The position numbers and the translations under genes are program-made. A stretch of 27,137 nt of DNA from a virus. Below the pieces are notes generated by a model. The model ran no database searches. It was not told where the DNA came from and saw only the letters and a program-made list of their open reading frames with translations. The DNA lies in IMG/VR virus record IMGVR_UViG_3300045051_001502, positions 1 through 27,137 of that record; one strand, 5' to 3'. Shown piece by piece: positions 1,873 to 27,137 of this stretch (positions within the stretch are counted from its first letter, which is position 1; each line of letters begins with the position of its first letter).

Positions 1873-1879
1873 TATTTAT
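1873..1879 (-). promoter_or_regulatory. ATAAATA box ahead of the coiled-coil/TM lysis gene
   Basis: The minus strand reads TTAATAAATACAGG. The box overlaps the stop codon of the 70-aa gene and lies 12 nt upstream of the GTG at 1860, so it could start a lysis-gene transcript. If transcription began 6 nt downstream, the AGGA ribosome site would be lost, which is a point against a promoter role at this copy. Confidence 0.4.
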
Positions 1880-3465: not shown

Positions 3466-5643
3466 TCATACCTTAATAATGAAATTCACCACATACGAAG
3501 GCTGCATATTGTTGTGGGCCGCACCGCCACCAGCGGAGGAAGTGGTTGTTGTGGTGAAGACAGGACCGATGCCTTGCACAAAAGGAGTAGTTCCGCTGCC
3601 GCCAAGACCTGTGTAATCGTGGGTGTGGGCTGGCATTTCACTAACTGACAAAGAGTGAGTTTCCGCACCAACCTTGCCACCCAATGTGCGCGCCGATAGA
3701 CCGGAACCATTTCCGGCACCGATTGGGGCACGACCACGCATATCCGGGAGGTTAAAGGTGGTGGAACCATCACCGGCACCGTGTGCCGTGCTAATCGCAG
3801 TGAACAACGCCGCATAGGTAGTGCGGCTTACTGCCGAACCATCACACAGCAACCAACCACTTGGGGCGGTTGTACCGCCAAACATCGTGATTGATCCCGA
3901 GGGGATTCCGCTGATCGTTTGCCAGGAAGGCGATGTGGTTGCACCGGTGCTTGTTAGCACCTGACCACTCGTTGATCCTGTTGCATCCAACTTGGCAGTA
4001 GTTACAGCCTTATCAGCAATCTTCTGAGTTGTAATGCCTTGGTCTGCAACCTTGCTCGTAGAAACAGCACCATCAACAATCTTACTTGACGTTACGTTGC
4101 CATCAACCAACTTGCTGGTGGATACCGTACCATCTGCCGGAACACCAATTGACAGCACACTTCCATACTTAACCTCAATAACAGAACCGTTTGGCGGTGC
4201 CTCGCTAAACGTCAATGAAGTTCCTACAACCGTGTATGTGTTCTTATTCTGGTAAACACCATCAATATGAACTTCAGTTGCATTCAACGTGCCTGGGTCA
4301 GCAGCAAGCGTGAACAGCGTTTGAGAACCATTGCCGGTATAACGGTCAACGTTGATCGCACCAGCACCAGCGCCAGTGCCAATTGCAAACCAACTGTTGG
4401 TCTGAGCATCAGCAACAATCGTTGCCGCACTCCATTGGGAACCAATCTGGTATGAGGTTGTGCCGTTGATGCTATCCGCACCAGTAACAGCCACATTCAC
4501 CGGGTTTGAATCACCAGTCTTCTTTGCAACGGCAACACGCCATCCCTCGCCCACCAAAGCGATGCTTGGTAGCGTAATGGTGCGCGCACCAGCAGACGTA
4601 TCAACACGAACAAGGTTGCCAATGTGGCTATTGTTCAATGTGGCGTTTGCTGAAACATCAATAACAGCATTATACATCTGCCCGGTTGCAGCATTGCTTG
4701 CGATAAGGGCACTTGCAGCAGCGTTAGTCTCACTTACCAGGGCATTGGCTGCACTGGTGGCCGCATCATTGGCCTTGGTTGAAGCGATCCCCGCCTGAGT
4801 GGTGGCAATGGTTGCCTGAGCGGTTGCCGTTGCAGCCGCGTTAGAAGCGGTTGTGGAGGCATTGGTTGCCGTGGCGGTATCAGCCGCCACCGTGGCCTTA
4901 TCAGCCGCCACAATGGCCTTATCCGCCGCAACGGTTGCCTTGTCGCTGGCAACGGTGGCCTTGTCACCGGCAACAGTAACCTTGTCAGCCGCTACCGCGA
5001 TGCGGTCGGCTGCCGTAGCGGCTGCGTCTGCATCTGCCTGGGTACGGGCGGCAATGGCAATGTTGGCCTGGGTGGTTGCGATGGTGGCCTGAGTGGTGGC
5101 GATTTCCGCCTGAGCGGTGGCGATAACCGCCTGTGCGGTCGCATCCTGCACAATGGTATCAAAGTCATTGCTGGACATTTCCAAGCCAGTGCCAGCCGCA
5201 TTTACCTTGAGGGCCTTATTGGCAACCAGTGGCGGGAAAATCACATTCTTGAAAGCGGAACTCTCTGCAAACGTAGGCGCTCTATCAACCTGTTCCTGCA
5301 ACTGCACCGCAATATCGGTCAACTTATCAACTGCATTCTCAAATGACTTCTGGCTAACCTTACCGCCATCTTCCCACTTGGTATCCTGCGTAATAGAAAC
5401 AACCTTCTTGATGGTAACCTTATAACCAGCAGGAGGAGCGGTTACGAACGTAACTGCGCCACCATCACCGTTAACCGTAATGCTGTAATTGAGTCCGATG
5501 GCCTGAACAGTCTCAACACCAACAGCATCCGTCAGGATCACAACAGCATAATCACTCTTCACCATAGGGAAGTCGTATGGGAAAACCTTAGTTACACCGT
5601 TACCGTTATGGTTGGCCTTATTCCTTGTTACACTTCTTGACAT
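3466..5643 (-). CDS. Tail fibre with T7-gp17-type N-terminus and C-terminal tail collar domain
   Basis: This gene encodes 725 aa. Residues 1-160 match the T7 tail fibre N-terminal attachment domain ([48 protein letters not shown]), which docks to the tail tube. Residues about 168-320 are an Ala/Thr/Asp-rich stalk with 7-residue repeats, predicted as a trimeric coiled coil. Residues about 505-555 carry a second repeat ([19 protein letters not shown]). Residues about 578-645 are a phage tail collar domain (PF07484 type: [32 protein letters not shown]), followed by EMPAHTHDY and a terminal [15 protein letters not shown] typical of such fibres. It is the likely main receptor-binding fibre. An ATAAATA box lies 37 nt upstream. 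Confidence 0.92.
4879..5004 (-). repeat. Six 21-bp tandem repeats coding for heptads in the fibre stalk
   Basis: Six successive 7-residue units ([42 protein letters not shown]; residues 214-255) are encoded in register. They give one coiled-coil heptad per 21 bp. Slipped-strand changes in copy number would lengthen or shorten the fibre stalk without breaking the frame. Confidence 0.85.
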
Positions 5644-5680
5644 TCCAAATCACCTTTACCAACAGAATGGCATTCCTCCA

Positions 5681-5687
5681 TATTTAT
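5681..5687 (-). promoter_or_regulatory. ATAAATA box ahead of the tail fibre gene
   Basis: The minus strand reads GGATAAATATGGAGG. The box overlaps the stop codon of the 830-aa ejection protein and lies 37 nt before the fibre ATG. A GGAGGAATG immediately downstream would open only a five-codon ORF (MPFCW), whose ribosome-site spacing is too short to be convincing. Confidence 0.5.
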
Positions 5688-8176
5688 CCATTGCTTCCGA
5701 AATCCGGTCCCCTATCGGGGGCATTTCTACCCGGACGCCACCAAAACTTTTGCCCGTAATACTTCTTACGGTTCTCAATCTGCCTTGAGAAAATTTCATT
5801 AGCGTTTGGCGTGATTGCCTTCGTAACAGCATCTTCAACAAGCCTGTCAAACGCCAAGCGGCCATACCAAATATTGTTGCCAGGGATGTATTTCAGCAGG
5901 TTCCTATTTTCGGAAAATGCAGACTTCCACATCTTGTCATATGGCTTTCCATTAGCCATCGCATTGAAGAAGGACCAAGACGGACGCAAAACGTCATTCG
6001 TCAACTGAACCATTGGACCAATGGTGGCGTTGAGGAACGGCGTCACTGCATCGCTTGAACGCTTCTGGCGAACGCTATCAATGGAGGTCTTCAGGTAGTC
6101 ACCGATGATGCCACCAGCGCCACCCTGGAAAAACGCATCCATCCAAAAGCCTGGGGTATCCCAACTACGTGGATCGCGGCCCGCTGAAATATCCTTCAAC
6201 GTGAGCGCAATTCCGCCAAGCAATGTCATACTCAGCGTGAAGCCAGCCGCGTATCCAGCACCTTGGGAGAATGAATTCTCAACACTTAGCATTCTGCCAA
6301 GGTGAGAATAGATTAGGAGGATTGGATACCTCTTATACATAGATACGGTTCGGCCAATCTGACCTTTCAAATGTGCGTCGGCAAAGGTGCGCTCAAACTT
6401 CCAACCAGCCGTAATGATTGCCTTATCGGTTTCTGCGTTGATGTATTGCCCCACCTTAACCGCCGCCTCTGCTGCGCCTGGTAGCGTGGCCTCCATACGC
6501 TCCAATGCGGCAAGGTTGATGTGCGGGATACCGTTCCTGTTGAGGGTTGGTGACTGGCGGATGATGTCCCACTCAGCCGCGCTAACGCCGTTGATCTTCA
6601 GGCCGCGTTGCAACCCGTTATCCAGTTGGTCAAAGGTCTTGTTGAAGGACTTAGCAAGCGTCTGAGCCATCGTGACGCTAAAGGCCACGCGACCGGCGTC
6701 CGTGTGACGGGTGAGGCCCGACCAGCGAAGCACCTTATCAGCCATCACCGTTCCAAGGCCCTTGGCCTCGGCAACTCCATAGGTGGCCTCTGCAAGAATG
6801 TTGGCCTGTAGGTGTTCCACCTGTAGGCCCAACCCCGCCGCAAACACCTTGATTTCATCGGCGCTCTTGCCCGAGAACAAACCATCCAGATAGTTCTTCA
6901 TCACTTGAACGATGGGCATATCATTAAAGCCAGCCGTCCAAGCCAACGTGCCAAAGTCACCCGTTGCGCTCAGTAGGGCACTACCCAACTGCGCAGATGC
7001 GATAATACCGCGTGCGTTATCCCAATACTTTGCATTCGTCTGATTGATGGCACCGAACGCCCTACCGTTTGCGATGTCCACCCATTCGTCAATGTGTTGA
7101 GCAATGTTATTCTCAACCTTGATAAGTCCCTTCACATCGCTGATTGGCTTACCAACTCTCTCGTTCTGAATGGTCCTGATAGCCGTAGCCTTAAGATGCT
7201 CAATCCCTTGAGCAACGTTAGGCCCAAATGTTTCCATCTGAGCAATCTCACGGCTCATATTCGTAATCTGCTTAATGGCAGTGCTTACAATGTCACGCTC
7301 ACCAAACCGCTCATTGTATGAAAACCAACCATCACCAGCGAAGTGAAGGACACGCTCATTATCATACTTGTTCGCAGTGGAAGCCTTGCCCTGGAACGTT
7401 GTTGACTTCTTATTGTATCCGTTCGTGGCAATCGTCTCATACATCGCATCCAAAACAGCGTTCAACTTCGGATCGCTCATTGGAAGACCCGTGTAATCGT
7501 CAATCATCTTAGAGCGGTCAAGCAATGGCTTAACGAAGGCCACCCATTCCGCCTTGGGCACCTCACCAACCTTCACCGAAGAGTGAATGTGCTGAAGATC
7601 GTAATTGCCACGCTTCCCGATGGCACCACCAGCCAACGCAAACCTATCGCTTACATAATCAAGAGACTGCCTCACACCATCGGCAAATGCCTTGGCCCAC
7701 TTGTCGCCTGTGCTGATACCAACCATTTCGGAATAAATGTTCTTCTGCGTGCTTTCCAGAACTTCGCCCTTGAACTTCCTTGGCAGGTTGGCGATTGCCT
7801 CTGAATAGAACTTCTTCGCCTGTGCTTCAATGTAGCGTGAGCGATATTCAAGGCTGTTGAACGTGTAGCGGTCGCGCCAATCCGGGGTGAAAATGGCATT
7901 TACGGCCTTCATTACATCATCAGCGTTTGCAATATGCGCGGCCAAGTTCGCGTGCGCCTTCATCTGTAGGGCTGCACGGAACGCCTTGATGGATGCATTG
8001 TTGCGCAACTGTCCAACAAGTGTGCGCTGGGCCAGGGAGGCGGCGGCTTGTGGGTTCATCGCACCACCAGCCATATGGGCTTGTGACGCAGCCCGGAAAT
8101 CATTGATTAGTTTCTGACCATCAGCAGCATCAATGAAATTCTGTCTAACCGCATTGTTAATACACTTCTCAACCAT
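5684..8176 (-). CDS. Large internal virion / DNA ejection protein
   Basis: This gene encodes 830 aa from ATG 8176 (a GTG at 8179 directly precedes it). Mostly helical, it has one clear hydrophobic stretch at about residue 645 (AAGFTLSMTLLGGIALTL) and a C-terminal block NRNLLKYIPGNNIWYGRLAFDRLV. That block and WSGLTRHTDAGRVAFS resemble a family of large podovirus structural proteins encoded just upstream of the tail fibre. By position it corresponds to part of T7 gp16. No transglycosylase-like motif was seen. It is probably carried inside the capsid and ejected to form a conduit across the envelope. Functional details are inferred from position. Confidence 0.8.
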   Translation of the reverse strand: MVEKCINNAVRQNFIDAADGQKLINDFRAASQAHMAGGAMNPQAAASLAQRTLVGQLRNNASIKAFRAALQMKAHANLAAHIANADDVMKAVNAIFTPDWRDRYTFNSLEYRSRYIEAQAKKFYSEAIANLPRKFKGEVLESTQKNIYSEMVGISTGDKWAKAFADGVRQSLDYVSDRFALAGGAIGKRGNYDLQHIHSSVKVGEVPKAEWVAFVKPLLDRSKMIDDYTGLPMSDPKLNAVLDAMYETIATNGYNKKSTTFQGKASTANKYDNERVLHFAGDGWFSYNERFGERDIVSTAIKQITNMSREIAQMETFGPNVAQGIEHLKATAIRTIQNERVGKPISDVKGLIKVENNIAQHIDEWVDIANGRAFGAINQTNAKYWDNARGIIASAQLGSALLSATGDFGTLAWTAGFNDMPIVQVMKNYLDGLFSGKSADEIKVFAAGLGLQVEHLQANILAEATYGVAEAKGLGTVMADKVLRWSGLTRHTDAGRVAFSVTMAQTLAKSFNKTFDQLDNGLQRGLKINGVSAAEWDIIRQSPTLNRNGIPHINLAALERMEATLPGAAEAAVKVGQYINAETDKAIITAGWKFERTFADAHLKGQIGRTVSMYKRYPILLIYSHLGRMLSVENSFSQGAGYAAGFTLSMTLLGGIALTLKDISAGRDPRSWDTPGFWMDAFFQGGAGGIIGDYLKTSIDSVRQKRSSDAVTPFLNATIGPMVQLTNDVLRPSWSFFNAMANGKPYDKMWKSAFSENRNLLKYIPGNNIWYGRLAFDRLVEDAVTKAITPNANEIFSRQIENRKKYYGQKFWWRPGRNAPDRGPDFGSNG

Positions 8177-16383: not shown

Positions 16384-16416
16384 AACAATATGGGGAGGCT
16401 TTCACCTCCCCATATT
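16384..16416 (-). terminator. Hairpin terminator/attenuator between capsid and tail genes
   Basis: A perfect 12-bp stem (16387-16398 with 16405-16416, arm AATATGGGGAGG, 6-nt loop) is followed on the minus strand by GTTTTG. It lies 27 nt past the capsid stop codon, where strong expression of the capsid must be cut down for the tail genes. The first arm overlaps the ATAAATA box at 16413-16419. Confidence 0.7.
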
Positions 16417-16419
16417 TAT
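16413..16419 (-). promoter_or_regulatory. ATAAATA box ahead of tail tubular A
   Basis: The minus strand reads GTTGATAAATATGGGG, 42 nt before the ATG at 16370. Four bases are shared with the 5' arm of the 12-bp terminator hairpin. Transcription starting about 6 nt downstream would begin inside that arm and could not form the full hairpin. Confidence 0.5.
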
Positions 16420-17536: not shown

Positions 17537-17544
17537 TATTTATA
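17537..17544 (-). promoter_or_regulatory. TATAAATA box, candidate capsid promoter
   Basis: The minus strand reads GATTATAAATAAG, an exact match to the T4 late promoter core TATAAATA. It sits 2 nt before the end of the scaffold gene and 203 nt upstream of the capsid ATG. No -35-like element is conserved among the copies in this window. Confidence 0.55.
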
Positions 17545-21121: not shown

Positions 21122-21129
21122 TATTTATA
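21122..21129 (-). promoter_or_regulatory. TATAAATA box ahead of the acetyltransferase
   Basis: The minus strand reads TTTTATAAATAGGTGAG between the terminase stop (21136) and the ATG at 21113. The box is an exact T4-late-type core. It sits only 8 nt from the start codon, so a transcript from it would be nearly leaderless. Read-through RNA retains AGGTGA as ribosome site. Confidence 0.5.
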
Positions 21130-22436: not shown

Positions 22437-22468
22437 ACCACCTAACTGTTCTTGTTGGTGGTATTTAT
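22437..22468 (-). promoter_or_regulatory. ATAAATA box fused to a ribosome-site-masking hairpin at terL
   Basis: The minus strand reads GATAAATACCACC. The arm ACCACC (22457-22462) begins on the last base of the box and pairs perfectly with GGTGGT (22437-22442), which contains the terL ribosome site AGGTGG. The loop is 14 nt. A transcript starting 6 nt after the box (about 22456) would lack the masking arm. Confidence 0.55.
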
Positions 22469-24673: not shown

Positions 24674-25213
24674 TTATGGGTTCGCGTTGAAGAAGGCTTG
24701 TGCGAAGCCTGGGGGCGTAACTGAGCGCAACGCGGCGCGGGCCTTGCTCTCACCCATCAACCACATCTTACTGCCCTCAGTGGCCTCTACAGGCGTCTTC
24801 ACGGGGATGGTGAAATCACCCCACAGACAGGTTCGCTTGGTATAGGGGTCACCGTAATCACAGGGCTGGAACACCAGCCTTGGCTTCCCCAGATACCGGG
24901 TTAGCCGCCCAACCGGATTCTCCAATGCCCACCACTTGGGCTTATGGATGGCGATAATCCGCATACAGGCGTCAACAACCGCCAAACCCTCCAACAAGGC
25001 ACTCTCCCCCTTCTCCTCCCACCAGCGGGCACCGGAGCGGGCAAAGTGTGTGCAGGGTGGTCCCGCCAAGATGCCCTGAATGGGCTCATTAATGTGCTGG
25101 ATCAAACGAACATCATCACCGTTCTTCAACTCGTAACGGCGAACATCGTAACCTGCTTTTAGGTAAGGCTCACTCCAAGTGCCCCCACCACTACATAGTT
25201 CCAAGATAATCAT
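24674..25213 (-). CDS. Small DNA cytosine-C5 methyltransferase
   Basis: This gene encodes 179 aa from ATG 25213. A GTG at 25249 would add 12 residues but would place the ATAAATA box and hairpin inside the gene. Motif I is LELCSGGGTWSEPYLKAGY (S-adenosylmethionine site), motif IV is AGPPCTHFARSGARWW with the catalytic Cys, and motif VI is WWALENPVGRL. The C-terminus RSVTPPGFAQAFFNAN matches short phage members of the family. The target-recognition region is very small. It probably methylates phage DNA against host restriction. It lies between the small-terminase-like gene and the reverse-oriented block. Confidence 0.88.
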   Translation of the reverse strand: MIILELCSGGGTWSEPYLKAGYDVRRYELKNGDDVRLIQHINEPIQGILAGPPCTHFARSGARWWEEKGESALLEGLAVVDACMRIIAIHKPKWWALENPVGRLTRYLGKPRLVFQPCDYGDPYTKRTCLWGDFTIPVKTPVEATEGSKMWLMGESKARAALRSVTPPGFAQAFFNANP

Positions 25214-25239
25214 ACCGATATTTATTTTTCGGTATGATT
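25208..25239 (-). promoter_or_regulatory. ATAAATA box in the loop of a start-codon-masking hairpin
   Basis: AATCATACCGA (25208-25218) and TCGGTATGATT (25229-25239) form a perfect 11-bp stem. The 10-nt loop holds the box (25219-25225). The methyltransferase ATG (25211-25213) lies inside the 3' arm of the minus-strand RNA and would be hidden in read-through transcripts. A start 6 nt after the box would fall at about the A of the ATG, giving a leaderless message. Confidence 0.55.
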
Positions 25240-25264
25240 TGACACTCACAAATCAAACGTCAAT

Positions 25265-25366
25265 ACAAAGGCGATTTAAAGCCCATACAGGCCAGTTTCT
25301 TCTTAGTGGCTACCTACCTGCCCAAAAACATTTCATTGGCCTGTACGGGGCTTAAATCGCGCTTGT
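25265..25366. repeat. Long imperfect inverted repeat, candidate structured RNA or DNA site
   Basis: The arms at 25271-25294 and 25337-25360 pair at 22 of 24 positions, plus one G-T wobble, around a 42-nt loop. CAAA/TTG-type pairing can be extended a few bases on the outside to about 25265 and 25366. The arm begins GCGATTTAAAGCCC. The element fills the gap between the small-terminase-like gene and the methyltransferase. There is no T-run, so it is not an ordinary terminator. Confidence 0.75.
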
Positions 25367-25373
25367 GAGATAC

Positions 25374-25955
25374 TTACATTCCTTCTTCTCTATCGGCAGA
25401 CTGAACGTTATCAACCTCAATGCAATCCGCATCAATAATCCCAAGCCTACGCTTCTCTTCCAAAAACTCTTCCGGTGGCATCAACCCAAACTGGTGAACA
25501 ACGGTTAGCGTGTTGTCGCTGGTGTTGTGGTTCTCGTTGATCTTCTCTCTTGGGGAGGATGCATCAATCAGGTTCCAAAGCAACTTCGCTTTAGTCTCAT
25601 CCTGTTTGTTGATATATTCCTTCTTAACAATCTTCACATATTGCAGCAATGGATTGAAACCCATTTCCTCCAACTTCTCACGCAACAATACCGCCTTGTT
25701 GCGGGTGCCCTTCGGCTTGCCAGCCGGGTTAAGGGATGGAGCCCCCTTCACCATATTGGGATTGCCACGCTTCTTCTTAGGCTTTGGCTCATCATCATCC
25801 ATCGGCAGACTGTCATTCTTCTCTATCGGCAGACTATCAATCGGCTGATTTTCAAAAATGTTGAAAGGCGCGTTGGGTTCTCCCAACAATACACCCCTCT
25901 CGTTCGCCAAAGCACCATCTACATCAACGGATTTCTCACACTTTTTCACACTCAT
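25374..25955 (-). CDS. DUF5681-like protein, putative small terminase subunit
   Basis: This gene encodes 193 aa, with GGGGAG 5 nt from the ATG. The central block NMVKGAPSLNPAGKPKGTRNK is characteristic of DUF5681-type phage proteins encoded beside terminases. A helical region LREKLEEMGFNPLLQYVKIV follows, then LLWNLIDASSPREK, as in small terminase subunits of this kind. Residues about 38-60 hold a short repeat (DSLPIEKN, DSLPMDDD), and the C-terminus is acidic. It would recognise the packaging start on phage DNA. Oddly, the large subunit is 3 kb downstream behind an inverted gene block. The call rests on motif resemblance. Confidence 0.65.
   Translation of the reverse strand: MSVKKCEKSVDVDGALANERGVLLGEPNAPFNIFENQPIDSLPIEKNDSLPMDDDEPKPKKKRGNPNMVKGAPSLNPAGKPKGTRNKAVLLREKLEEMGFNPLLQYVKIVKKEYINKQDETKAKLLWNLIDASSPREKINENHNTSDNTLTVVHQFGLMPPEEFLEEKRRLGIIDADCIEVDNVQSADREEGM
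25383..25835. repeat. 20-bp exact direct repeat inside the small-terminase-like gene
   Basis: AGTCTGCCGATAGAGAAGAA (minus strand) occurs at 25816-25835 and again at 25383-25402, with an 11-bp partial copy at 25801-25811. The first copy is read as SLPIEK and the second in another frame as SADREE, so the identity is at DNA rather than protein level. Confidence 0.85.
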
Positions 25956-25963
25956 ATGCGCTC

Positions 25964-26030
25964 CCCTATAGGGAAATGCCTGTTCGTAATGGCATTTTTC
26001 CCCAATAAATCATTGGCTACGCATATTTAT
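25964..26030 (-). promoter_or_regulatory. Leader of the small-terminase-like gene with ATAAATA box
   Basis: The minus strand reads TTCAATAAATATGCG at the box (26024-26030). CAATAAAT (26025-26032) can pair with ATTTATTG (26003-26010), so this copy too lies in a hairpin arm. Further down are an AATGCC/GGCATT hairpin (25975-25996) and the 10-bp palindrome CCCTATAGGG (25964-25973) just ahead of the ribosome site. Confidence 0.45.
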
Positions 26031-26060
26031 TGAATAGGGTTGGAAATGGCGTGCTGTTGC

Positions 26061-26098
26061 AAAAGGAAAGCCCCCTTGCCTGGAGGGAGCAAGGGGGC
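26061..26098 (-). terminator. Rho-independent terminator between the 298-aa gene and the small-terminase-like gene
   Basis: GCCCCCTTGC (26070-26079) and GCAAGGGGGC (26089-26098) form a perfect 10-bp stem with a 9-nt loop, followed on the minus strand by TTTCCTTTTG. It ends the 298-aa gene's transcript and the candidate small RNA. The opposite strand has CAGTTTTA after the stem, so weak plus-strand activity is possible. Confidence 0.85.
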
Positions 26099-26179
26099 CA
26101 GTTTTACCGCTATGTTTGGAACGGATGTTCCACTTTAAGGAGGAGTATATAAGATTAACCAGTAAGTCGCTCAACTTAC
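26061..26179 (-). ncRNA. Candidate ~119-nt small RNA with anti-Shine-Dalgarno-like segment
   Basis: A TATAAATA box (26185-26192) predicts a start near 26179. There a hairpin begins at once: GTAAGT/ACTTAC (26174-26179 with 26162-26167). Then comes an unpaired AT-rich stretch containing CTCCTCCTTA (26136-26145), which includes CCTCCTTA, the 3' end of 16S rRNA. A GGAAC/GTTCC hairpin (26118-26131) with a four-base loop follows, and then the 10-bp terminator. No start codon and ribosome site combination exists in the interval on this strand. The open frame through the terminator looks spurious. Confidence 0.5.
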
Positions 26180-26184
26180 GAATA

Positions 26185-26192
26185 TATTTATA
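26185..26192 (-). promoter_or_regulatory. TATAAATA box heading the candidate small RNA
   Basis: The minus strand reads GTGTATAAATATATT in the gap after the 298-aa gene. It is an exact match to the T4 late core and has no protein gene before the next terminator. Confidence 0.5.
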
Positions 26193-26240: not shown

Positions 26241-27137
26241 TTACCAATCATCTTCACTCATACGCGGGCCGTTGTTATGCTGCGTCTTCCCTGACCCATC
26301 AAACCAATATGCCTTCCAATAGAACTGCTTGGCGTGGAAATCTCCCTTGCGGAATGGCAAGCGCCAATAATCATCACCAAGCCACATAAACACTTCACCC
26401 TCATTCATAAAGTTTGGTTCTTTGAGGGATGGATTGCCGTAGAACCTAAACCCACAGAACCCCCACATTGCCCTTGGGTTCTTTGGTCGGCCTCCGGTCA
26501 CTGGTTGAAGCAATCCATATGCCTGCCATTCTTTCGCATCCAACGTATCAAGGATGCGCTCACCCCAACGTTTCAAGTCCGCTTTCTCTTCCTGGGTCAA
26601 TGAACGCTTGGCGTAATCGGCCATCACCTCATCCAAGTAACCAAGGAACTTAGGGTTCTCGCTCTTGTTGGTTGCCGTCTTGGCGCTCATTCGGTGTTGC
26701 CACTCACTTCCTTGTGTTCCGTCCTTCCAGTTGATTTGCGCCTTCATAATCCACATCCGGTCACGGTTGTTCCTCACACTCGGCGGGTTATGAACCAGTT
26801 GGAGGGATAGTTCCTTGACCGGCTGGTTGATGATCGGGTTCGGGCTGGGTTGCGGGGTTGGCGGGGTTGCATTCCGCCAGTCATATTCAAAAAAACCCGT
26901 ATGGATGGGAGCCGAATGGACAACATCCGTATGGATGGCATCTGGGATAGATTCCTCATTGGATGAACCCGGATGGGGGAAGTCCGTATGGACCAAACCC
27001 GAATGGATTTCTTCAGACGAAGGAGAAAAAAAGTCTAATCTCTTAATCTTCTTAATCTCCTTAATCTCCTTAATCATTAGGCTTTCATCATTTGAAGAAA
27101 TAATAGGTTCATATGAACCCGCGTTATAAATATCCAT
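26241..27137 (-). CDS. Unrecognised 298-aa protein with iteron-bearing N-terminal region
   Basis: This gene encodes 298 aa from an ATG at the window edge. The true start could lie outside. Residues about 22-34 are an IKE/IKK repeat. Residues about 43-83 hold histidine-containing five-residue repeats (IHSGL, VHTDF, PHPGS and later IHTDV, VHSAP, IHTGF). Residues 90-120 are Pro-rich. Residues 125-298 look like a folded domain rich in Trp and Phe (MWIMKAQINWKDG, MWGFCGFRFYGNPSL, YWRLPFRKGDFHAKQFYWKAYW). No family is recognised. The repeated DNA and the gene's lone position suggest a replication protein carrying its own origin, as in lambda O, but this is inference. A terminator lies about 140 nt downstream. 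Confidence 0.7.
   Translation of the reverse strand: MDIYNAGSYEPIISSNDESLMIKEIKEIKKIKRLDFFSPSSEEIHSGLVHTDFPHPGSSNEESIPDAIHTDVVHSAPIHTGFFEYDWRNATPPTPQPSPNPIINQPVKELSLQLVHNPPSVRNNRDRMWIMKAQINWKDGTQGSEWQHRMSAKTATNKSENPKFLGYLDEVMADYAKRSLTQEEKADLKRWGERILDTLDAKEWQAYGLLQPVTGGRPKNPRAMWGFCGFRFYGNPSLKEPNFMNEGEVFMWLGDDYWRLPFRKGDFHAKQFYWKAYWFDGSGKTQHNNGPRMSEDDW
26896..27007. repeat. Two triplets of 15-bp-spaced iterons
   Basis: The 10-mers CCCGTATGGA (26896), GCCGAATGGA (26911), TCCGTATGGA (26926), CCCGGATGGG (26968), TCCGTATGGA (26983) and CCCGAATGGA (26998) are spaced exactly 15 bp within each triplet. A degraded copy (CCTCATTGGA) may lie at 26953. Being 15 bp apart, they also encode five-residue protein repeats, so either DNA binding or protein structure could be the selected property. 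Confidence 0.85.
27033..27077. repeat. Five tandem 9-bp AT-rich repeats
   Basis: Units beginning at 27033, 27042, 27051, 27060 and 27069 follow CTTAATCTC with few changes (the first is GTCTAATCT). They lie 25 bp from the last iteron and encode the IKE/IKK run. Position and AT-richness fit a DNA-unwinding element, though a purely protein-level repeat is possible. Confidence 0.85.
27106..27132. promoter_or_regulatory. 14-bp palindrome and plus-strand TATAAATA at the right edge
   Basis: GGTTCATATGAACC (27106-27119) is a perfect palindrome. Five bases later the plus strand reads TATAAATA (27125-27132), the only copy of the 7-mer on that strand. It would direct transcription out of the window to the right. 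The same bases form the first codons of the minus-strand gene, so the match may be coincidental. Confidence 0.4.

Follow-up and report, generated by a model that had tools for sequence, protein, structure and literature searches.

How is translation of a phage DNA methyltransferase gene controlled when its ATG lies in one arm of a perfect inverted repeat and a promoter-like box lies in the loop? The gene is on the minus strand of a 27,137-nucleotide stretch of DNA from an uncultured bacterial virus (the window), a 27-kb fragment; the early region is in neither the window nor a sister contig. We identified its product as a probable small C5-cytosine DNA methyltransferase from its matches to PF00145 (23.7 bits; cut-off, 22) and phrog_757 (2.2e-48), from the PPC and ENP motifs, which are conserved across 30 sequences, and from Foldseek matches to DNMT3A, M.HaeIII and M.HhaI (E values of 5e-7 to 1e-6). 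The features at its start are as follows.

24674–25213, minus strand: predicted gene for a small C5-cytosine DNA methyltransferase of 179 amino acids (PF00145, phrog_757)
25247–25249, minus strand: alternative GTG start, 12 codons upstream of the ATG; disfavoured
25239–25229, minus strand: 5′ arm of the inverted repeat, AATCATACCGA
25228–25219, minus strand: loop, AAAATAAATA
25219–25225, minus strand: ATAAATA box, putative T4-late-like promoter element
25218–25208, minus strand: 3′ arm, TCGGTATGATT, which contains the ATG (25213–25211)
25213, minus strand: predicted +1, which is the first base of the ATG and lies 6 nt beyond the final A of the box; putative leaderless start

The initial annotation had described a perfect 11-bp stem with the ATG in its 3′ arm and ATAAATA in its loop, and we confirmed this arrangement to the base: positions 25239–25208 of the minus strand read AATCATACCGA-AAAATAAATA-TCGGTATGATT, with a 10-nt loop of which the box fills the last seven bases. 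The stem has an energy of −12.5 kcal/mol (z −5.35), and none of 200 shuffles was equally good, a comparison that is biased because the stretch was picked for its pairing. For that reason, a count of perfect stems across the whole window is the fairer test. Only two perfect stems of at least 11 bp with loops of 3–12 nt occur in the 27-kb window (16387–16416 and 25208–25239), against an average of 0.03 in 30 dinucleotide shuffles of the window, and both overlap an ATAAATA box. The stem at 25208–25239 is not due to chance. With a long flank, its minimum free energy was unexceptional (z −1.22); a generic test of the energy of pairs crossing +1 gave p ~0.1, and the hairpin energy across +1 was only modestly unusual over the nine boxes described below. 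The case for this hairpin rests on the perfection of the stem and on the register in which box and ATG fall within it. A search of Rfam gave no match. We rejected an intrinsic terminator at 25208–25239, where a terminator scan lists nothing on either strand.

The box belongs to a family. The window has nine copies of ATAAATA on its minus strand and one on its plus strand, against 1.9 expected in total, and among 7-mers it ranks first in the intergenic gaps (8 of 20). Every minus-strand copy lies between genes or overlaps the preceding stop codon; the probability that at least 9 of 10 copies would fall in sense-intergenic space, which makes up 3.4%, is ~6e-13. The initial annotation had placed the transcript start six nucleotides after the box, at the A of the ATG. 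With the offset thus set beforehand, we found a purine at this position in 9/9 boxes, the sole offset among the 1–15 tested for which this holds, which supports the placement. The boxes resemble the T4 late promoter TATAAATA; a T precedes ATAAATA at only three of the nine, and a good −35 hexamer is absent at eight, the exception being the box at 26191, which has a perfect TTGACA at 18 bp. Because there are nine copies on the late-gene strand, always intergenic and with a purine six nucleotides on in each case, we regard ATAAATA as very probably a phage promoter. The other eight minus-strand copies are listed here.

26185–26191, minus strand: box, also with TTGACA 18 bp upstream of TATAAA
26024–26030, minus strand: box upstream of gene 25374–25955; the putative nearest upstream source of read-through RNA
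22462–22468, minus strand: terL box, whose 5′ end is paired within a leader hairpin hiding GGTGG
21122–21128, minus strand: box that ends 6 nt ahead of the acetyltransferase GTG (21116)
17537–17543, minus strand: box upstream of the major capsid gene
16413–16419, minus strand: box behind the capsid gene, overlapping hairpin 16387–16416 (perfect, 12 bp) in its 5′ arm
5681–5687, minus strand: box upstream of the tail-fibre gene
1873–1879, minus strand: box upstream of gene 1525–1860

Additionally, we considered and rejected a sigma70 promoter at 25263–25234 (TTGACG-18-AATCAT), which matches at 9 of 12 positions and is of a kind no commoner in the window than in shuffles; RNA from this site would likewise be without most of the 5′ arm of the hairpin.

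A transcript beginning at A25213 would give a leaderless methyltransferase message. The Shine–Dalgarno pairing of this gene, −2.6 kcal/mol at both ATG 25213 and GTG 25249, is the weakest among the genes checked, the others ranging from −3.2 to −13.6. RNA from the predicted +1 loses all 11 pairs of the stem, and the predicted probability that the AUG is unpaired is 0.0007 in read-through RNA versus 0.98 in the leaderless RNA. In the longer RNA, the AUG is thus predicted to be locked in a stable stem, as in switches of the T4 type.

The stem, the box family, the purine at the predicted +1, the register of the ATG and the weak Shine–Dalgarno sequence are seen in the sequence, and on them we build the following reading. 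The ATAAATA at 25225–25219 would be a phage-specific, single-element promoter, presumably served by a sigma factor, that fires at A25213 and yields a leaderless methyltransferase mRNA. RNA begun further upstream would fold the 11-bp stem, and such read-through RNA would be silent because the stem buries the AUG and a Shine–Dalgarno sequence is absent. In RNA begun at the box, all 11 pairs would be gone and the AUG free, so that the methyltransferase would be made only while the phage's own promoter class is active. We put the probability of this reading as a whole, with promoter, AUG-hiding hairpin and leaderless mRNA, at about 0.5.

The inverted repeat could instead be a DNA operator, in which a dimeric regulator on two half-sites would occlude or position the polymerase on the ATAAATA box. 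We consider this a serious rival, if on balance a doubtful one. The symmetry around the box is perfect, and the half-site centres are 21 bp apart, or two helical turns. The phage also appears to be temperate, as suggested by a tyrosine-integrase-like gene on the sister contig, and the window carries a serine recombinase gene. The binder could be the methyltransferase itself or a phage protein, either an activator or a repressor; a repressor could come from the early region, which is absent from the window. Against an operator, the half-site has no further exact copy in the window, the exact palindrome is absent from IMG/VR, and 57 methyltransferase homologues have no comparable palindrome or hairpin at their starts (stems of 8 bp at most; a single box, there by chance). 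Binding by the methyltransferase itself is unlikely, because profile searches detected no helix-turn-helix or added DNA-binding domain in its 179 amino acids. A hairpin and an operator may also coexist, since I-TevI, which autoregulates through an operator over its late promoter, has both controls (PMC2988022).

Two further explanations would deprive the hairpin of a role, and we judge both to be improbable. If translation began at GTG 25249, as the initial annotation had raised, the box and hairpin would lie inside the coding sequence and have no part in the gene start. The frame is open from 25249, and a few of the 57 homologues have possible starts 11–14 codons upstream; none of the 57 starts at the residue corresponding to M25213, all beginning at least one residue upstream and the nearest exactly one. 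This start is nevertheless disfavoured by its equally weak Shine–Dalgarno sequence, by the codons between GTG 25249 and ATG 25213, which are non-coding-like (log-likelihood −4.4) and include the rare codon ATA, used four times elsewhere, and by the predicted fold. In an AlphaFold model of the long form, residues 1–6 have pLDDT below 50 and strand 1 begins at residue 14; this disorder of the extension is weak evidence, because the homologues in the underlying alignment were clipped by a residue or two at the N terminus. A start at GTG 25249 would also leave the perfect stem around the box unexplained. Alternatively, the box could be a promoter and the hairpin a chance structure, a relic or an RNA stabilizer only. 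Stems adjoin boxes in many intergenic regions of this phage, and the tests of crossing energy were modest, as this explanation would have it; against it, so perfect a stem is expected only 0.03 times in the window, and the only gene that lacks a Shine–Dalgarno sequence has its start codon within it.

If the AUG-hiding hairpin does act as a switch, the source of the longer RNA bears on what it would separate. Two structures lie upstream of the methyltransferase.

26069–26099, minus strand: strong intrinsic-terminator-like hairpin between boxes 26191 and 26030
25265–25366, minus strand: large stem with 30-nt arms, 83% complementary, and a 42-nt loop, between gene 25374–25955 and the methyltransferase gene

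Going upstream, the first promoter candidate is box 26030, which shares the class of the methyltransferase box and directly follows the strong terminator-like hairpin. Read-through RNA therefore need not be early, and rather than marking an early–late divide, the hairpin at the ATG may keep the methyltransferase from being expressed off the transcript of the neighbouring gene. That the methyltransferase itself would be a late gene is suggested by the boxes before the terL, capsid and tail genes. The large stem at 25265–25366 is followed by a smaller stem, with no clear U-tract, and for want of this tract it is possibly an RNase III site or a barrier or insulating structure. The sister contig shares short words with this large stem, at no higher level than in shuffles, and we rejected a second copy there. 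A stem of 10 pairs, TTCAATAAAT / ATTTATTGGG (26005–26035, minus strand), has box 26030 within its 5′ arm. We also observed a candidate small RNA of ~115 nt at 26179–26060 (minus strand); it would start from a TTGACA-18-TATAAATA promoter, fold a stem-loop at its 5′ end and stop at a strong terminator of the intrinsic type (z −3.2).

The methyltransferase hairpin had been described as a second case of a design seen at terL. The resemblance is real: at terL, the first bases of the box pair with bases adjoining the ATG, and the Shine–Dalgarno sequence GGTGG pairs with ACCACC, most of which would be removed by the predicted start at 22456. The terL version is weaker: its hairpin is imperfect, and one arm carries the box, the other the Shine–Dalgarno sequence. 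Behind the capsid gene, the perfect 12-bp hairpin at 16387–16416 (minus strand) is terminator-like, and the predicted start at 16407 would delete most of its 5′ arm. The interlock thus seems to recur, at both of these places, but of all the cases just two stand out when each is taken by itself. It is conceivable, and we hold it as a tentative view, that this podovirus, which is not related to T4, possesses an ATAAATA promoter class of its own and has placed the methyltransferase start codon such that promoter, hairpin and leaderless AUG interlock, one set of bases both silencing read-through RNA and launching the leaderless mRNA, with the weaker cases making this a genome-wide design. The acetyltransferase gene, whose GTG 21116 and ATG 21113 (minus strand) begin 6 and 9 nt after a box, is a second leaderless candidate.

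We found no close relative beyond one contig of the same species, 99.9–100% identical, and it stops short of the methyltransferase region. This phage's portal and terminase have relatives in Pelagibacter phage HTVC010P; relatives identified by terL or portal have at most 46% identity and do not share the box, and a portal search of genome contigs gave one relative, at 21%. Sense-strand enrichment of ATAAATA was found in neither HTVC010P-type genomes nor 160 distant relatives. A blastn search of the region against phages and plasmids gave no match, and no relative was found for the protein encoded at 26241–27137. In HTVC010P, an ATAAATA lies directly before a similar hairpin, at position 7260 of that genome. 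On the sister contig (L265), the tyrosine-integrase-like gene occupies 5240–6388 (minus strand), with an ATAAATA nearby on the opposite strand. The product of gene 1–396 of the window (minus strand) has a weak MazE/AbrB-like DNA-binding match and is a possible regulator.

Single-element promoters and ATAAATA motifs are known from other phages. The gp36 promoters of phiEco32 have a single element, are not of the sigma70 type, lack a −35 element, start 6–8 bp downstream and have a known sigma factor (PMC8948821); phiEco32, like this phage, is a podovirus with single-element promoters, and its start offset matches the 6 nt seen here, whereas its motif is tAATGTAtA rather than ATAAATA (PMC8948821). 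In the jumbo phages CBB and GAP32, the same 7-mer as here precedes structural genes and has been proposed, by motif prediction only, as the CBB late promoter; CBB is without some T4 late factors, and the passage on the motif describes no hairpin or leaderless case (PMC5259590). The promoters reported for Skadi-1, a phage of the HTVC010P type that encodes no RNA polymerase, are all of the sigma70 type (PMC10504331). The present boxes would provide a concrete promoter motif for a phage with an HTVC010P-related portal and terminase.

The closest precedent is in T4, where the early RNA of genes e, soc, 49 and I-TevI keeps the translation start hidden by pairing it in a stem, and a TATAAATA promoter in the 5′ strand of that stem gives RNA that is unable to fold it (PMC3014915, PMC2988022). 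The logic here would be the same, in that long RNA hides the start and RNA from the internal promoter lacks the 5′ arm. Unlike in the T4 genes, the hidden element here is a start codon without a Shine–Dalgarno sequence, the gene encodes a DNA methyltransferase in a podovirus, the box lies in the loop and the message is predicted to be leaderless. If this reading is correct, the start-hiding trick of T4 also came about in a podovirus lineage with no relation to it, where it is leaderless and restricts a DNA methyltransferase. By analogy, the locus resembles the known T4 combination of hairpin and late promoter, as a variant in which the start codon itself would be hidden and the message would have no leader.
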